Source of the DNA: a virus
IMG/VR virus record: IMGVR_UViG_3300027741_000051
Coordinates: 1 to 64,000 of that record
Direction: 5' to 3' (one strand)
Length of the DNA: 64,000 nt
A model generated the notes under the pieces. That model was not told the DNA's origin. It made no database searches and saw nothing but the letters and a program-made list of their open reading frames with translations. The stretch's first letter is position 1. Each line of letters opens with the position of its first letter. Positions 4,590-12,133 of this stretch are shown piece by piece. Position numbers and translations under genes: made by a program.

Positions 4590-5267
4590 ATGAAAATTAA
4601 AATTGGTCCTTATATCGATTGGATTGGCCCATATCAAATTGCAGATATGCTTTGCTTTTGGGTCAAACCAGTAAAAGATGAACATGGCTTTAAAGATAAA
4701 CCAGATTGGGTACACGAATTTGGTAAACGCTTAAGTAAAAACAGCAAAGGTGAGGAATCACTTCTGTCTAAGTTTTGCCACTGGGTACATTCAAAAAGAA
4801 AACAAACTGTCAAGGTAAAGATTGATAGTTGGGATACTTGGAACATGGATGGAACATTGGCTTTGATTATTTTGCCAATGTTGAAACAACTAAGAGATAA
4901 AAAACACGGTGCACCATATGTTCGTGATGAAGATGTACCTGAAGGTTTGAATCTCCGTTCCACTGAAGCACCACCTAAAGAAAATGAGTGGGACACCGAT
5001 GAAAACCATTTCAAGCGCTGGGATTGGGTACTTGATGAAATCATTTGGGGTTTTGAACAGGAACATCCTGATTGTGATTGGGATGCTCAATACCATACCG
5101 GTGTACATGACAGTGAATGGATTAAATTAGACAATGGTATGTTTGAAATGAAGAAAACGGATAAAGATACCAGTCATTTTGATGCTGAAGGTTACAAGGC
5201 ACATTCGGATCGTATTGACAATGCTATGCTTCTATTTGGCCGTTACTACAGAGGTCTTTGGGATTGA
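4590..5267 (+). CDS. Conserved phage hypothetical protein (225 aa)
   Basis: A 225-aa, Trp- and Asp-rich protein preceded by AAGGGAAT. It starts MKIKIGPYIDWIGPYQIAD and contains a DSWDTWNMDGTLALIILP segment typical of a conserved uncharacterised phage family that I recognise by pattern but cannot name. It overlaps the next tiny gene by TGATG at 5265-5269. No catalytic motif is evident. Confidence 0.65.
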   Translation: MKIKIGPYIDWIGPYQIADMLCFWVKPVKDEHGFKDKPDWVHEFGKRLSKNSKGEESLLSKFCHWVHSKRKQTVKVKIDSWDTWNMDGTLALIILPMLKQLRDKKHGAPYVRDEDVPEGLNLRSTEAPPKENEWDTDENHFKRWDWVLDEIIWGFEQEHPDCDWDAQYHTGVHDSEWIKLDNGMFEMKKTDKDTSHFDAEGYKAHSDRIDNAMLLFGRYYRGLWD

Positions 5268-5922: not shown

Positions 5923-6079
5923 ACTATCTAAAAGAAACAAAACTATGATTGCGCTATTGCCATTTGTGAATAAAGAACAACGCAACGCATTTAAACAAAA
6001 TATGATTCAAGCTCAATACATTGCTTCAACATCCGAACGACAACAGATGGGTGTAAATGCTAAGGGCAAAGACGAATAA
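5900..6079 (+). CDS. 59-aa basic protein
   Basis: ATG 5900 follows TTAGGATTAT (an AGGA site) and the ORF ends at TAA 6077-6079. The 59-aa product is basic (TFKLSKRNKT at its N-terminus) with an FVNKEQRNAFKQNMIQAQY helix, a pattern shared by short conserved phage proteins. It is the first gene of the transcript from the promoter at 5842. Function unknown. Confidence 0.55.
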   Translation: MKTPSTFKLSKRNKTMIALLPFVNKEQRNAFKQNMIQAQYIASTSERQQMGVNAKGKDE

Positions 6080-6082
6080 ATA
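6075..6082 (+). promoter_or_regulatory. Candidate T4-type late promoter (AATAAATA)
   Basis: AATAAATA fits the NATAAATA octamer of T4-like aquatic phages and lies 29 bases before ATG 6111, in the gap after the 59-aa gene. Confidence 0.45.
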
Positions 6083-6110
6083 CAACCCACAACTAACTTG
6101 AAAGAATATT

Positions 6111-6425
6111 ATGAGCACATTTATCGAAGTATTTTCTGTTGAAAAAAACACCAAAGTAATTATCAATCTAGATTCAATTCTAGAAATTGCACCGCTGCGT
6201 GAAGGTGGTTGTAATCTGTTTTTCCCTGATGCTGCGGCAGTTGGTGGTAAAAACTCTATGAAGGTTACAGATTCTTATACAATGTTCCAACAATTTGCAT
6301 TGCAGACAGTAACACCTGAAGACATTGCAACACGAATTCAAAGAATGCAACCGCAAGAAGAACGCCGTGGTCCAGGCCGCCCACCGAAAGTAACTATGGG
6401 TAATACTACTGCTGGTCTTGAATAA
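6111..6425 (+). CDS. Hypothetical protein with AT-hook-like tail (104 aa)
   Basis: A 104-aa protein. The N-terminal 75 residues form an alternating beta pattern. The C-terminus carries RRGPGRPPK (residues 85-93), which matches the core of an AT-hook, a minor-groove DNA-binding motif. The leader CTTGAAAGAATATTATG is nearly the same as that before the gene at 2424. It overlaps the MazG-like gene by one base (TAATG). DNA binding is inferred only from the hook. Confidence 0.6.
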   Translation: MSTFIEVFSVEKNTKVIINLDSILEIAPLREGGCNLFFPDAAAVGGKNSMKVTDSYTMFQQFALQTVTPEDIATRIQRMQPQEERRGPGRPPKVTMGNTTAGLE

Positions 6426-6697: not shown

Positions 6698-6965
6698 TAT
6701 TTTAAAATGGATTAGTAATGATTACGAAAGCAATAGAGTACGTTTTTATTTTGAGATCCTTGCTTGGGCTTTATCTGTTGGTTGTGCTATCACTATGGCC
6801 CTCACCGTGCCTAATCCTCCCCTTCTTATCATGTACCCAATCTGGATTACAGGTTGTCTTATATACGCTGGGTGCGCTTATACTCGGCGTTCCTTTGGTA
6901 TGCTTGCTAATTATTTCCTATTGGTCACCATCGACTCTATCGGACTATTAAGAATGATATTATGA
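6690..6965 (+). CDS. Small integral membrane protein (91 aa)
   Basis: ATG 6690 is inside the end of the MazG-like gene and gives a 91-aa protein with an amphipathic N-terminus and about three hydrophobic segments (residues ~21-37, 43-61 and 70-90). The upstream in-frame ATG lies too deep in the previous gene. No family is recognised. It overlaps the next gene by 4 bases. Confidence 0.55.
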   Translation: MSNILKWISNDYESNRVRFYFEILAWALSVGCAITMALTVPNPPLLIMYPIWITGCLIYAGCAYTRRSFGMLANYFLLVTIDSIGLLRMIL

Positions 6966-7513
6966 ATATCTTTTACCTCGACAACGATCCAAAAATTTGT
7001 GCAGAAATGCACGTTGATAAACATGTTTGCAAAATGGTTATTGAATATGCTCAGTTGTTATCTACATCTCACCGTGTACTTGACGGCGAAGAATATCGTA
7101 GATTAACAGCAAACAATAGGTCAATCAAAGCATGGCGATTGCCTGATGAGCGTGAAACTCGTCTTATGAAACCTACTATGCAGAATCATCCATCCGCAAT
7201 CTGGTCTCGACAATCAGATAAAAACTATGTGTGGTTGTATACTTTGTGGTGCGAACTCCTTAAAGAATTCACATATCGTTATGGCAAAATCCATGCTTGT
7301 GCTAGATTGATACCCGACCTTAAAATGATACCAAATAATATACCAAAAGGTGATTTTACAGGTCCCACACCTGCAATGCCTGATGAAGTAAAAATTCCAG
7401 GTGATTCTATGGCATCATATCACAATTACTATATAAATAATAAGACGCACCTAGCCTCATGGCGTGGTAAGATTAATTCCCGTAATGTTCCGAATTGGTT
7501 TCAAACAATATAA
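6962..7513 (+). CDS. Conserved phage protein of unknown function (183 aa)
   Basis: A 183-aa protein beginning MNIFYLDNDPKICAEMHVDK, with the HVDKHVCKM and EYAQLLSTSHR motifs of a family widespread in phages and usually left uncharacterised. Its His/Asp/Cys-rich N-terminus suggests an enzyme, but none is established. Its last codons are unusual. The final stretch (7431-7490) is repeated at 8099-8158, and the ending after the repeat differs (PNWFQTI here against LGWYNAQL in the remnant), so this 3' end was rewritten by the event that placed the oxygenase gene behind it. Confidence 0.7.
   Translation: MNIFYLDNDPKICAEMHVDKHVCKMVIEYAQLLSTSHRVLDGEEYRRLTANNRSIKAWRLPDERETRLMKPTMQNHPSAIWSRQSDKNYVWLYTLWCELLKEFTYRYGKIHACARLIPDLKMIPNNIPKGDFTGPTPAMPDEVKIPGDSMASYHNYYINNKTHLASWRGKINSRNVPNWFQTI
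7431..7490 (+). repeat. 60-bp direct repeat, copy 1
   Basis: Bases 7431-7490 match 8099-8158 with 58 of 60 identities. Both differences are synonymous third-position changes (AAT/AAC and TCC/TCT). The repeat contains TATAAATA at 7432-7439. It lies at the 3' end of the 183-aa gene and brackets the oxygenase gene together with copy 2. Confidence 0.9.
7432..7439 (+). promoter_or_regulatory. Candidate late promoter (TATAAATA) in repeat copy 1
   Basis: A perfect T4 late octamer inside the 183-aa coding sequence, 73 bases before the oxygenase ATG at 7513. Confidence 0.45.
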
Positions 7514-8098: not shown

Positions 8099-8158
8099 AT
8101 ATAAATAATAAGACGCACCTAGCCTCATGGCGTGGTAAGATTAACTCTCGTAATGTTC
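8099..8158 (+). repeat. 60-bp direct repeat, copy 2
   Basis: The second copy of the repeat at 7431-7490, again with TATAAATA (8100-8107). It is followed by unique sequence leading to the 92-aa gene. Confidence 0.9.
8100..8107 (+). promoter_or_regulatory. Candidate late promoter (TATAAATA) in repeat copy 2
   Basis: A perfect late octamer 63 bases before ATG 8171, in the non-translated remnant. Confidence 0.5.
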
Positions 8159-11221: not shown

Positions 11222-11250
11222 TTGACAAGTCTCTAATCCTGTGATACAAT
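11222..11250 (+). promoter_or_regulatory. Strong promoter of the stable-RNA operon
   Basis: TTGACA at 11222-11227, a 17-base spacer and TGATACAAT with the -10 TACAAT at 11245-11250, an extended -10 promoter. Transcription would start near 11257, just before the tRNA-like element at 11262. No other promoter is visible before the tmRNA pieces and the outer-membrane-type gene. Confidence 0.85.
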
Positions 11251-11261
11251 ATATAATTAAC

Positions 11262-11349
11262 ACACTTATGAACTGGGACATGGCTCAGCTGTGCAATTAG
11301 ACTAAGTTCCCACTTTGTGGGTACGGGAGTGAGAATCTCCCTAAGTGTG
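11262..11349 (+). tRNA. Class-II tRNA-like element without clear anticodon arm
   Basis: A perfect 7-bp acceptor stem (11262-11268 with 11342-11348), directly joined to a 5-bp T-stem (11325-11329 with 11337-11341) with a 7-base loop TGAGAAT, and a 5-bp hairpin with a TTT loop (11309-11321) placed like a long Leu/Ser variable arm. The middle does not fold into a normal D arm and anticodon arm; instead GAACT (11270-11274) pairs with AGTTC (11305-11309). No CCA is encoded. It may be a decayed or interrupted tRNA, or a tRNA mimic. No amino acid can be assigned. Confidence 0.35.
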
Positions 11350-11356
11350 TATTTTA

Positions 11357-11419
11357 TTGCTGTATGAAGCAAAGAGAAAAGTGTTCTGGACGGGGGTGCG
11401 AATCCCCCCACCTCCACCA
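11357..11419 (+). ncRNA. ssrA: tmRNA acceptor piece (3' half) of a permuted ssrA
   Basis: The segment ends TTCTGGAC, then a T-stem of five G (11392-11396), loop TGCGAAT, five C (11404-11408), then CACCTCC-A-CCA (11409-11419), which matches the canonical 3' end of tmRNA. The acceptor strand CACCTCC pairs with GGGGGTG at 11498-11504 downstream (six Watson-Crick pairs and one G-U). The 3' half is therefore encoded before the 5' half, as in two-piece permuted tmRNAs. The exact 5' end of the piece is uncertain; a short TTGC/GCAA hairpin lies near its start. Confidence 0.85.
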
Positions 11420-11497
11420 AAAACGCATCTGCCAGTCGCTCTGGTTGTATGGTACTATTCTAGAAATAAGGTTCAAGTCCTTTGGTGCGTTTTTGAT
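11420..11497 (+). other. Intervening segment of permuted tmRNA, tRNA-like fold
   Basis: Between the acceptor and coding pieces lie 78 bases that close on a 12-bp helix: CAAAAACGCATC (11418-11429) with GGTGCGTTTTTG (11484-11495). Inside are a 4-bp arm CCAG-TCGCT-CTGG placed like a D arm and a T arm AAGG-TTCAAGT-CCTT with a canonical T-loop. No convincing anticodon stem exists in 11445-11466. It could be a degenerate tRNA captured in the tmRNA spacer, or a processing signal for RNase P and Z. Confidence 0.55.
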
Positions 11498-11663
11498 GGG
11501 GGTGCATAGTTTCGACAGGGCAACAAGTAACAGAGTGGACAGCACGGTAGGCGATGACCGTTAATCAAGCAAAAAACGTAAATGCAAACGACTCCGCATA
11601 TCGCCTAGCTGCTTAAGCTAAGCTGAGGTTTCGCCGACTGTCCTTATTATCCAATCAGTCGGC
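11498..11663 (+). ncRNA. ssrA: tmRNA coding piece (5' half) with tag ANDSAYRLAA
   Basis: It begins GGGGGTG (5' acceptor strand) and CATAGTTTCGACAGGG, the tmRNA D-loop-like signature. The tag frame starts at GCA 11584 and reads A-N-D-S-A-Y-R-L-A-A before TAA 11614-11616, with the usual AND start and LAA degron end. A hairpin GCCGACTG/CAGTCGGC (11633-11640 with 11656-11663) probably closes the 3' side. tmRNA with SmpB rescues stalled ribosomes and tags the products for ClpXP. No smpB gene is in this window. Confidence 0.88.
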
Positions 11664-11689
11664 AATTTGTTCAACAATAGGAGAAAATT

Positions 11690-12133
11690 TTGATTAAAAA
11701 ACTCGTACTTATCGCATCCCTTATGGGTGTATTTGCAAGCGCACAGGCTTTAGAAGTTGGTATCAATGATGGCACCAATCTTAGCTCAACACAAAATGTT
11801 TGGGGTGTATCAGTTGGTGAAACCGTACATGGTTATAACCTAACCGCAGGATTCAATCGTTCTACATCCGCTGACTCTTACAGTTTGGTTAATAGTGTAG
11901 AGGTATCAAAAATGGGACCTGTATCAATTGATGCTAAATTTGGTCTTCTTTTTATCGATAGCCAATCAGGTTCAGCTTATGATGGTTATGCCGCTTCTGC
12001 TGGTATTGGTGCTCGTATGCCAATTACCAAGTCAGTTACAGCAGGACTTGATTACAGTTACCAAGCTGGTCAAGACCGGGTTGTTGCAGAAAACGGTAGC
12101 CGTATTACTGCTGGCGTTAAATTTAGTTTCTAA
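11690..12133 (+). CDS. Outer-membrane beta-barrel-type protein with signal peptide
   Basis: A 147-aa protein read from TTG 11690, which has a strong AGGAG 8-12 bases upstream; no ATG with a ribosome-binding site fits. Residues 1-20 form a signal peptide (KK, hydrophobic core, SAQA cleavage site). The mature part is alternating beta strands rich in Gly, Ser, Tyr and Asn, and ends in GVKFSF, the terminal Phe signal read by the BAM complex. It probably inserts in the host outer membrane during infection. It follows the tmRNA coding piece by 26 bases in the same transcript and ends at a strong terminator. Confidence 0.75.
   Translation: MIKKLVLIASLMGVFASAQALEVGINDGTNLSSTQNVWGVSVGETVHGYNLTAGFNRSTSADSYSLVNSVEVSKMGPVSIDAKFGLLFIDSQSGSAYDGYAASAGIGARMPITKSVTAGLDYSYQAGQDRVVAENGSRITAGVKFSF

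Follow-up and report, generated by a model that had tools for sequence, protein, structure and literature searches.

The locus studied here, at which a tmRNA gene appears in two permuted pieces within a phage genome, raises the question of whether the gene is complete and truly belongs to the phage, and of what role could be played by the RNA in front of it and by the sequence between its two pieces. The window, that is, the whole stretch of 64,000 nucleotides that we analysed, belongs to an IMG/VR virus record of 74,816 bases. Our preferred reading, to which we assign a probability of nearly 0.8, is that of a working permuted tmRNA in a stable-RNA operon, with a conserved structured RNA (motif A) as its leader and an intervening sequence (IVS) that serves as a cassette. 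The features on which the analysis is based are as follows.

11222 to 11250, plus strand: match to a sigma-70-type promoter (TTGACA-17-TACAAT, sharing 11 of the 12 consensus letters), the second hexamer being preceded by TG
11260 to 11350, plus strand: motif A, a 91-nt cloverleaf-like RNA (covariance model R1, pair counts, null result in Rfam)
11358 to 11419, plus strand: tmRNA 3' (acceptor) half, comprising the T arm and the acceptor strand and ending in CACCTCCACCA (ARAGORN, Rfam, letters)
11420 to 11497, plus strand: IVS, consisting of motif B (related copies both in other IVSs and away from tmRNA; pairing of the closing helix conserved despite base changes)
11498 to 11673, plus strand: tmRNA 5' half, with the GGGGGTG acceptor strand, TTCGAC, the pseudoknot region, the tag frame and a 3' hairpin (ARAGORN, Rfam)
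11584 to 11616, plus strand: tag frame ANDSAYRLAA and stop codon TAA (ARAGORN; codons read directly)

A complete permuted tmRNA gene in a T4-like phage

The original prediction had placed a circularly permuted tmRNA with the tag ANDSAYRLAA at this site and would have been contradicted by the lack of any tmRNA model match between 11350 and 11670. The only gene that ARAGORN reported in the window is a permuted tmRNA (tmRNA*), placed at 11327–11707 and bearing that same tag, and two Rfam models were matched over their whole length and above their gathering scores, namely RF04321 (tmRNA_permuted) at 11358–11616, with 137.2 bits against 47 (model positions 1–213 of 213), and RF01850 (beta_tmRNA) at 11306–11673, with 99 bits against 84 (model positions 1–331 of 331). 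The E-values of the two matches, 8.3e-27 and 7.3e-29, exclude a chance match. The predicted order of the parts can be read in the letters, with the 3' half, which ends at 11419, encoded ahead of the 5' half, which opens with GGGGGTG, and the IVS lying between them. As also predicted, the acceptor strands GGGGGTG and CACCTCC pair across this gap, forming 7 bp with a G-U wobble as the third pair; G3-U70 is the alanine identity pair. The tag starts with alanine and ends in a hydrophobic degron. The tag is not unusual: the AND start and the LAA end are retained and RLAA endings recur in the ARAGORN calls for L025, L015, L042 and L091. A complete permuted tmRNA gene in this phage is therefore confirmed.

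The neighbouring genes encode PhoH, a PD-(D/E)XK exonuclease, a cell wall hydrolase, a late-transcription coactivator, the gp59 helicase loader and gp32, and because of PhoH, the exonuclease, the coactivator, gp59 and gp32 the phage is assigned to the T4-like group, in support of the earlier claim of a permuted ssrA in such a phage. The possibility that host DNA was mis-assembled into the contig, also raised at that time, is unlikely, since two other IMG/VR contigs, represented by L145 (13,703 nt, from a contig of 104,241 bp) and L158 (7,200 nt), match the window at 100% identity throughout these lengths, the locus included. It is likewise very improbable that the tmRNA is a fragment of host DNA, whether decayed or contaminating. 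Phages can acquire pieces of ssrA from their hosts, according to the accessible text of PMC9004378, but the full-length matches to two covariance models, the conserved T4-like neighbours, the same arrangement in two more contigs and the close relatives with intact variants argue against such a fragment. The betaproteobacterial-type score of the tmRNA would fit its capture from such a host.

No SmpB was found in four phage records (74,816, 104,241, 160,679 and 170,520 bases, any of which may be incomplete), the same search being positive in 10 of 14 control genomes, and host SmpB would therefore be used. The window also carries a 60-base direct repeat (7431–7490 and 8099–8158, 97% identical, 668 bases apart), the first copy of which falls within the end of the reading frame 6962–7513 and the second between listed frames.

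A permuted ssrA in a T4-like phage is no longer news. The accessible text of PMC9004378 describes the two-piece tmRNA of Melnitz, a T4-like methylophage that has been isolated, and assigns 53 of the 133 unique phage tmRNA structures to the two-piece form. Looking ourselves for permuted tmRNAs whose IVS measures 55–85 bases, we obtained at least 120 viral stretches, and in 120 of them ARAGORN called 113 tmRNAs. Because Melnitz and other phages have such tmRNAs, the two-piece tmRNA of the window, taken alone, is not new. What looks new is what surrounds a tmRNA of known kind, a conserved leader RNA, motif A, and an IVS that bears cargo, neither of which the original prediction mentions. No account of motif A, of motif B or of cargo in phage IVSs came to light in the open-access literature searched, nor in the accessible text of PMC2864571 and PMC10085705.

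Structure, distribution and placing of motif A

The 701-base region holds three promoter-like sites, against a mean of 1.4 after shuffling, and the spacing of the promoter match would place the start of transcription at about position 11257. Motif A in the window has a 9-bp closing helix, a helix P2 with a bulged A, P3, P4, a GUAC joint and an arm P5 with a 7-nt T-loop-like loop, the arm abutting the closing helix. R1 scored 93.8 bits at 11261–11349, the window being one of the 15 sequences from which the model was built, and the predicted fold of the stretch was stronger than those of shuffled versions (z −2.6 to −2.9). The general layout is a four-way junction in which a closing helix of 6–14 bp (the count stopped at 14) and of variable sequence is followed by one U, then by P2 (GAUC/GAUC or GAAC/GUUC, extended past the bulged A), by P3, an inner hairpin on the far side of an internal loop that is conserved, by the hairpin P4, by the joint GUAC and by P5. 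P5 leads directly into the closing helix, and its 7-nt loop reads UGNRA or GGNRG plus AU; loop positions 1 and 5 are U and A in 10 of the 32 distinct copies and G and G in the other 22. UGNRA is a T-loop signature.

The pairing was evaluated in an alignment of 15 motif A sequences of one sub-type (A2), from which R1 was built. In this alignment, 99.0% of 389 cells were paired and 18 of 26 pairs showed two-sided change, distributed as 8/8 in the closing helix, 1/4 in P2, 2/5 in P3, 4/4 in P4 and 3/5 in P5. Cells with two-sided change numbered 92, against a shuffled mean of 29.5 with none of 500 shuffles as high, and against at most 12 in slid controls that keep the relatedness of the sequences. 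The count of further pair types (33, against 32.2 after shuffling) showed no excess. When RNAalifold was given all 32 distinct copies, it found the closing helix, P2, P4 and P5 unprompted, with two-sided change in 17 of 23 pairs; P3 was not drawn. By these comparisons motif A is an RNA family with good support, and none of the searches of Rfam 15 made here matched it. The motif A stretch alone, searched to E = 5, gave only two microRNA matches of at most 13.2 bits, and motif A had no match to E = 5 in the window and five loci and none at gathering scores in sets of 15 and 12 loci. Known families were considered and rejected one by one: the glutamine riboswitch (RF01739) did not match motif A to E = 5, though the family does match in Melnitz; tRNA (RF00005) did not match the stretch alone to E = 5, nor motif A in the other loci searched; and matches to manA (RF01745) begin beyond the end of motif A. 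Only with its threshold relaxed to 80% did ARAGORN call motif A and the IVS as tRNAs, and the opposite strand then received a spurious call as well.

A core pattern of motif A returned 40 viral stretches and two wider patterns returned 17 and 35, partly the same, which after the removal of chance matches left 32 distinct full copies. R1, run over 482 sources, yielded 44 copies at 47.9–104 bits, a figure that includes the model-building sequences and several copies from the same phage or near relatives; all other matches scored 26.4 bits or less. The copy in L444 was obtained through the length of its IVS and not through any motif A pattern. Among the rejected candidates, L344 and L361 (26.4 bits each) are tRNA-Glu, while L122–L124, L127, L136, L138, L139, L144, L147, L152, L155, L261, L263–L265, L267, L270, L275 and L280–L282 lack the rest of the motif and were not matched by R1. 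Whole-record searches of five phage records gave one copy in each of the four with a known copy and none in the fifth. With three queries, blastn did not find motif A in 50,697 phage records, and we therefore know of no cultured motif A system; a weak match in an uncultured 595-kb phage record (L292) was rejected. A single pattern, which covers GATC..GATC only and misses the GAAC..GTTC of the window, found no motif A in 84,980 bacterial and archaeal genomes, its sole match (L291) not being matched by R1.

The places in which the 44 copies lie differ widely. In 12 of them, motif A ends about 70 nt before the CCA of the tmRNA 3' half (the window, L145, L158, L157, L133, L135, L151, L095, L154, L132, L156 and L444), and in five it ends about 160–410 nt before it (L131, L150, L093, L052 and L125). 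In two cases a reading frame comes next (L140, which has the tmRNA beyond it, and L134, where the contig ends), four lie within the IVS of a tmRNA (L129, L130, L142 and L269), three lie 3' of the tmRNA (L279, L266 and L268), 13 lie in or near tRNA arrays, and for five neither a tRNA nor a tmRNA was seen within 1.5 kb (L137, L146, L149, L153 and L262). An abiF RNA (RF03085) occurs near motif A in L093 (5582–5618, beside the tmRNA) and in L141 (673–709, beside a tRNA array), and the phage tRNA array of L283 includes, at about 4636–4710, a tRNA with the anticodon CTA, named tRNA-Pyl by ARAGORN and possibly an amber suppressor.

These places bear on whether motif A is a riboswitch or attenuator for the downstream tmRNA, a role that the accessible text of PMC9004378 proposes for a glutamine riboswitch and the ssrA of Melnitz. 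Such a switch would accord with the position of motif A between the promoter match and the tmRNA in the window and its close relatives, and with the run of T that follows several copies. We nevertheless consider it improbable, because the placing of motif A varies: in the copies inside an IVS, after the tmRNA, or in or near tRNA arrays (the last being 13 of the 44), no role as a tmRNA leader is possible. The closing helix of at least 6 bp in the listed distinct copies, the failure to find a terminator near motif A of the window and the lack of a glutamine riboswitch match to motif A also speak against a switch.

Another possibility is that motifs A and B are processing or stability elements acting in cis, which would guide RNase P or RNase E or would block decay. 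In agreement with this, a tRNA or tmRNA lies on the same strand within 1.5 kb of motif A in 38 of the 44 cases (that of L132 was seen by reading), and in the window motif A would form the extreme 5' end of the transcript. On the other hand, motif A may stand before, inside or after the stable RNA, and its conservation is strongest in P2, the internal loop of P2 and the P5 loop and not at the ends of the motif, both of which weigh against a cis element and leave it, in our judgement, somewhat unlikely.

The intervening sequence and its contents

A long closing helix is common to most IVSs of phage permuted tmRNAs. Helices of at least 8 bp were present in 69 of 84 distinct IVSs of 55–85 bases, against 6 of 1680 shuffles, and in 43 of 51 distinct IVSs of 86–115 bases, against 6 of 1020 shuffles. 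When the window was compared with L131, motif A (84/89), the 3' half (60/62), the 5' half (111/115) and the tail (65/65) were nearly or fully identical, whereas identity across the IVS was 0.49, against a shuffled mean of 0.48. The comparison with L151 gave the same picture, with 88/89 for motif A, 60/62 for the 3' half, 110/115 for the 5' half and 61/67 for the tail, and 0.34 for the IVS, against 0.35 after shuffling. The divergence from the window extends to the 5' half in L133 (0.60) and to both halves in L156 (0.59 and 0.72), the tail of the latter being retained (65/65), indicating that larger blocks are exchanged too and that the IVS is not always exchanged alone. In the isolated Synechococcus phage S-CAM1, about 5 bases occupy the place at which L190 holds a tRNA-Tyr, the flanks being alike, and free-standing relatives of that tRNA-Tyr occur in isolated cyanophages, in S-BM3 adjoining tRNA-Asp and tRNA-Arg.

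The contents of the IVS include intact tRNAs, with ARAGORN calling tRNA-Asn in at least L050, L114, L119, L232 and L251 and tRNA-Tyr in at least L190, L203, L235, L257 and L260; the IVS tRNAs of L050, L190 and L232 are missing from the Rfam table, from which overlapping clan matches are left out. Motif A fills the IVS in four loci, and motif B does so in the window and eight further loci (L145, L158, L254, L284, L285, L287, L288 and L289). At least four further recurrent cores were seen in L046, L033, L015, L109 and others (GACGAACC..GGTAGCAAACA; TTAGATGAAAGAAACC; ATATGCAnATAGCATAT; TTTGAGGTCTTGGTCGTT), and those of the four named loci had no Rfam match of their own to E = 0.5.

Motif B folds into a closing helix of at least 10 bp, a CCAG/CTGG hairpin, a T-arm-like element AAGG-UUCAAGU-CCUU that lies against the closing helix, and an unpaired tail. 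Compared with shuffles, the whole IVS gave a z of −2.81, and the inner 70 nt were no better than shuffled sequence (z −0.60). A pattern scan for motif B returned 10 viral stretches, in two of which (L286 and L290) it stands outside a tmRNA, after a tRNA gene. When five stem variants were aligned by hand, every one of them paired, with two-sided change at 4 of 9 positions of the closing helix. The core is nearly invariant, with few distinct sequences, which is why covariation was seen in the closing helix only. RF00005 gave no tRNA match to motif B at L286 to E = 0.5, and in the window a tRNA match that overlaps the tmRNA could be hidden by the Rfam clan filter. The best match outside tmRNA on the IVS of the window is to mascRNA, whose 20.9 bits (E = 0.11) lie below the cut-off of 42.5.

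Among 176 distinct IVSs from 260 loci, 42 carried a small reading frame led by a Shine-Dalgarno-like sequence just inside the IVS; a pattern that demanded a Shine-Dalgarno sequence and ATG had enriched this set for such frames. Less biased collections gave 6 of 84 distinct IVSs (three of them doubtful) and 5 of 51. Of the 42 frames, 13 terminate at a UGA that leaves a single base to the end of the IVS, and the others stop earlier or enter the tmRNA. Frames of 22–25 aa that encode hydrophobic peptides, with the Shine-Dalgarno sequence near the start of the IVS and UGA as the last codon, occur in L021, L023, L044, L094, L417, L426, L466, L469 and L473. The IVSs of L385, L299 (177 nt) and L337 (304 nt) hold a short first frame and then a second one, which is hydrophobic and starts MFK..YI.WSI.AD, and those of L377, L384, L338 and L308 look similar.

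Given this diversity, one might regard the IVS as neutral filler, any helix-closed sequence being tolerated and the cargo having no function. The high variety of the contents, the occurrence of nearly empty sites and the many small frames that extend past the end of the IVS into the tmRNA are all as expected of filler. Against it, the same cores recur across IVSs with altered closing helices, and the tRNAs are kept intact. The reading frames point the same way: in nine frame families, one pair from each, changes at the three codon positions numbered 63, 49 and 103 (p = 1.7e-5), a signal that is partly selected as the families were chosen for an open frame, and the changed codons comprised 63 synonymous and 91 other. 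We therefore regard filler as an unlikely account of the IVS.

Proposed model and comparison with known systems

According to the preferred reading, the promoter match at 11222–11250 would start a transcript at the foot of motif A, which would form a tRNA-shaped leader. By analogy with the family, the tRNA-processing enzymes would then excise the IVS, with RNase P cutting at 11498 and 3' trimming proceeding to the CCA at 11419, and the two pieces, joined by the acceptor stem, would receive alanine and bind host SmpB. Stalled proteins would be tagged with ANDSAYRLAA, as other members of the family lead us to expect, and host ribosomes would thus be kept usable during infection. The IVS itself would be a helix-closed cassette, its exchange among related phages being visible in the comparisons above, and maturation of the tmRNA would free motif B as a separate RNA.

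What the cassette is for can be stated only with less confidence. It is quite possible, although we stop short of calling it probable, that the tmRNA gene doubles as an expression cassette, with the IVS as a dedicated cargo slot prone to recombination, that maturation of the tmRNA releases the cargo, and that motif A represents a new class of phage RNA, a tRNA-shaped decoy against host proteins that target tRNA. The cargo may then be a tRNA, a tRNA mimic (motifs A and B) or a mini-mRNA that encodes a very small peptide, in many cases hydrophobic. More tentatively, we favour for motifs A and B a role in trans, in which they would mimic tRNA and bind a host protein that recognises it, over a role as switches of the tmRNA. 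If the IVS is a cargo slot, many phage genomes would hide tRNAs, small RNAs and mini-proteins inside their tmRNA gene, which would suggest a reason for which phages retain the permuted form, and the slot would offer a natural route to short closed RNAs that need no promoter of their own. The tRNA-like shape of motif A makes the decoy idea directly testable.

Among known RNAs, motif A resembles tRNA (RF00005) in its cloverleaf layout and in the T-loop-like arm set against an acceptor-like helix, and a phage tRNA-Glu is the best match of R1 outside the copies (26.4 bits). It differs from tRNA in having no CCA, no anticodon arm in register and an enlarged D-like arm. It also keeps company with manA, an RNA of phage tRNA arrays (accessible text of PMC2864571), which follows motif A after 6–49 nt in L148, L271, L274, L278 and L283, a recurring tandem of such arrays, and with GOLLD, which shares arrays with motif A in L128 and L283. 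Both manA and GOLLD are nevertheless separate, non-overlapping RNAs, and neither Rfam model matches motif A.

The closest system in an isolated phage is that of Melnitz (L482, MZ577097), in which PhoH, the PD-(D/E)XK nuclease, the tmRNA, the coactivator, the helicase loader and the ssDNA-binding protein follow one another in the same order. The tmRNAs are of different types, that of Melnitz matching alpha_tmRNA (106.7 bits) and that of the window beta_tmRNA, and motif A, present in the window, is absent from the 49,991 of 141,548 bases of Melnitz that were searched, the tmRNA included. Whereas the IVS of the window is motif B, that of Melnitz is 142 nt long and holds an unannotated open frame, led by a Shine-Dalgarno sequence, which spans the IVS and continues beyond its end. 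The glutamine riboswitch of Melnitz (RF01739, 6399–6447) lies between the alpha_tmRNA match (5974–6391) and the late-transcription coactivator gene; placed as it is after the tmRNA, it is hardly suited to the cis control of ssrA that the abstract of PMC9004378 states.

For a stable RNA that lies within the IVS of a permuted tmRNA, a precedent is known from the nominally archaeal GCA-2688965, whose IVS contains an intact tRNA-Ala, termed a unique feature in the accessible text of PMC11915505. In contrast to that single case, tRNA-Tyr or tRNA-Asn occupies the IVS in at least 10 viral loci, and other types of cargo occur there as well.
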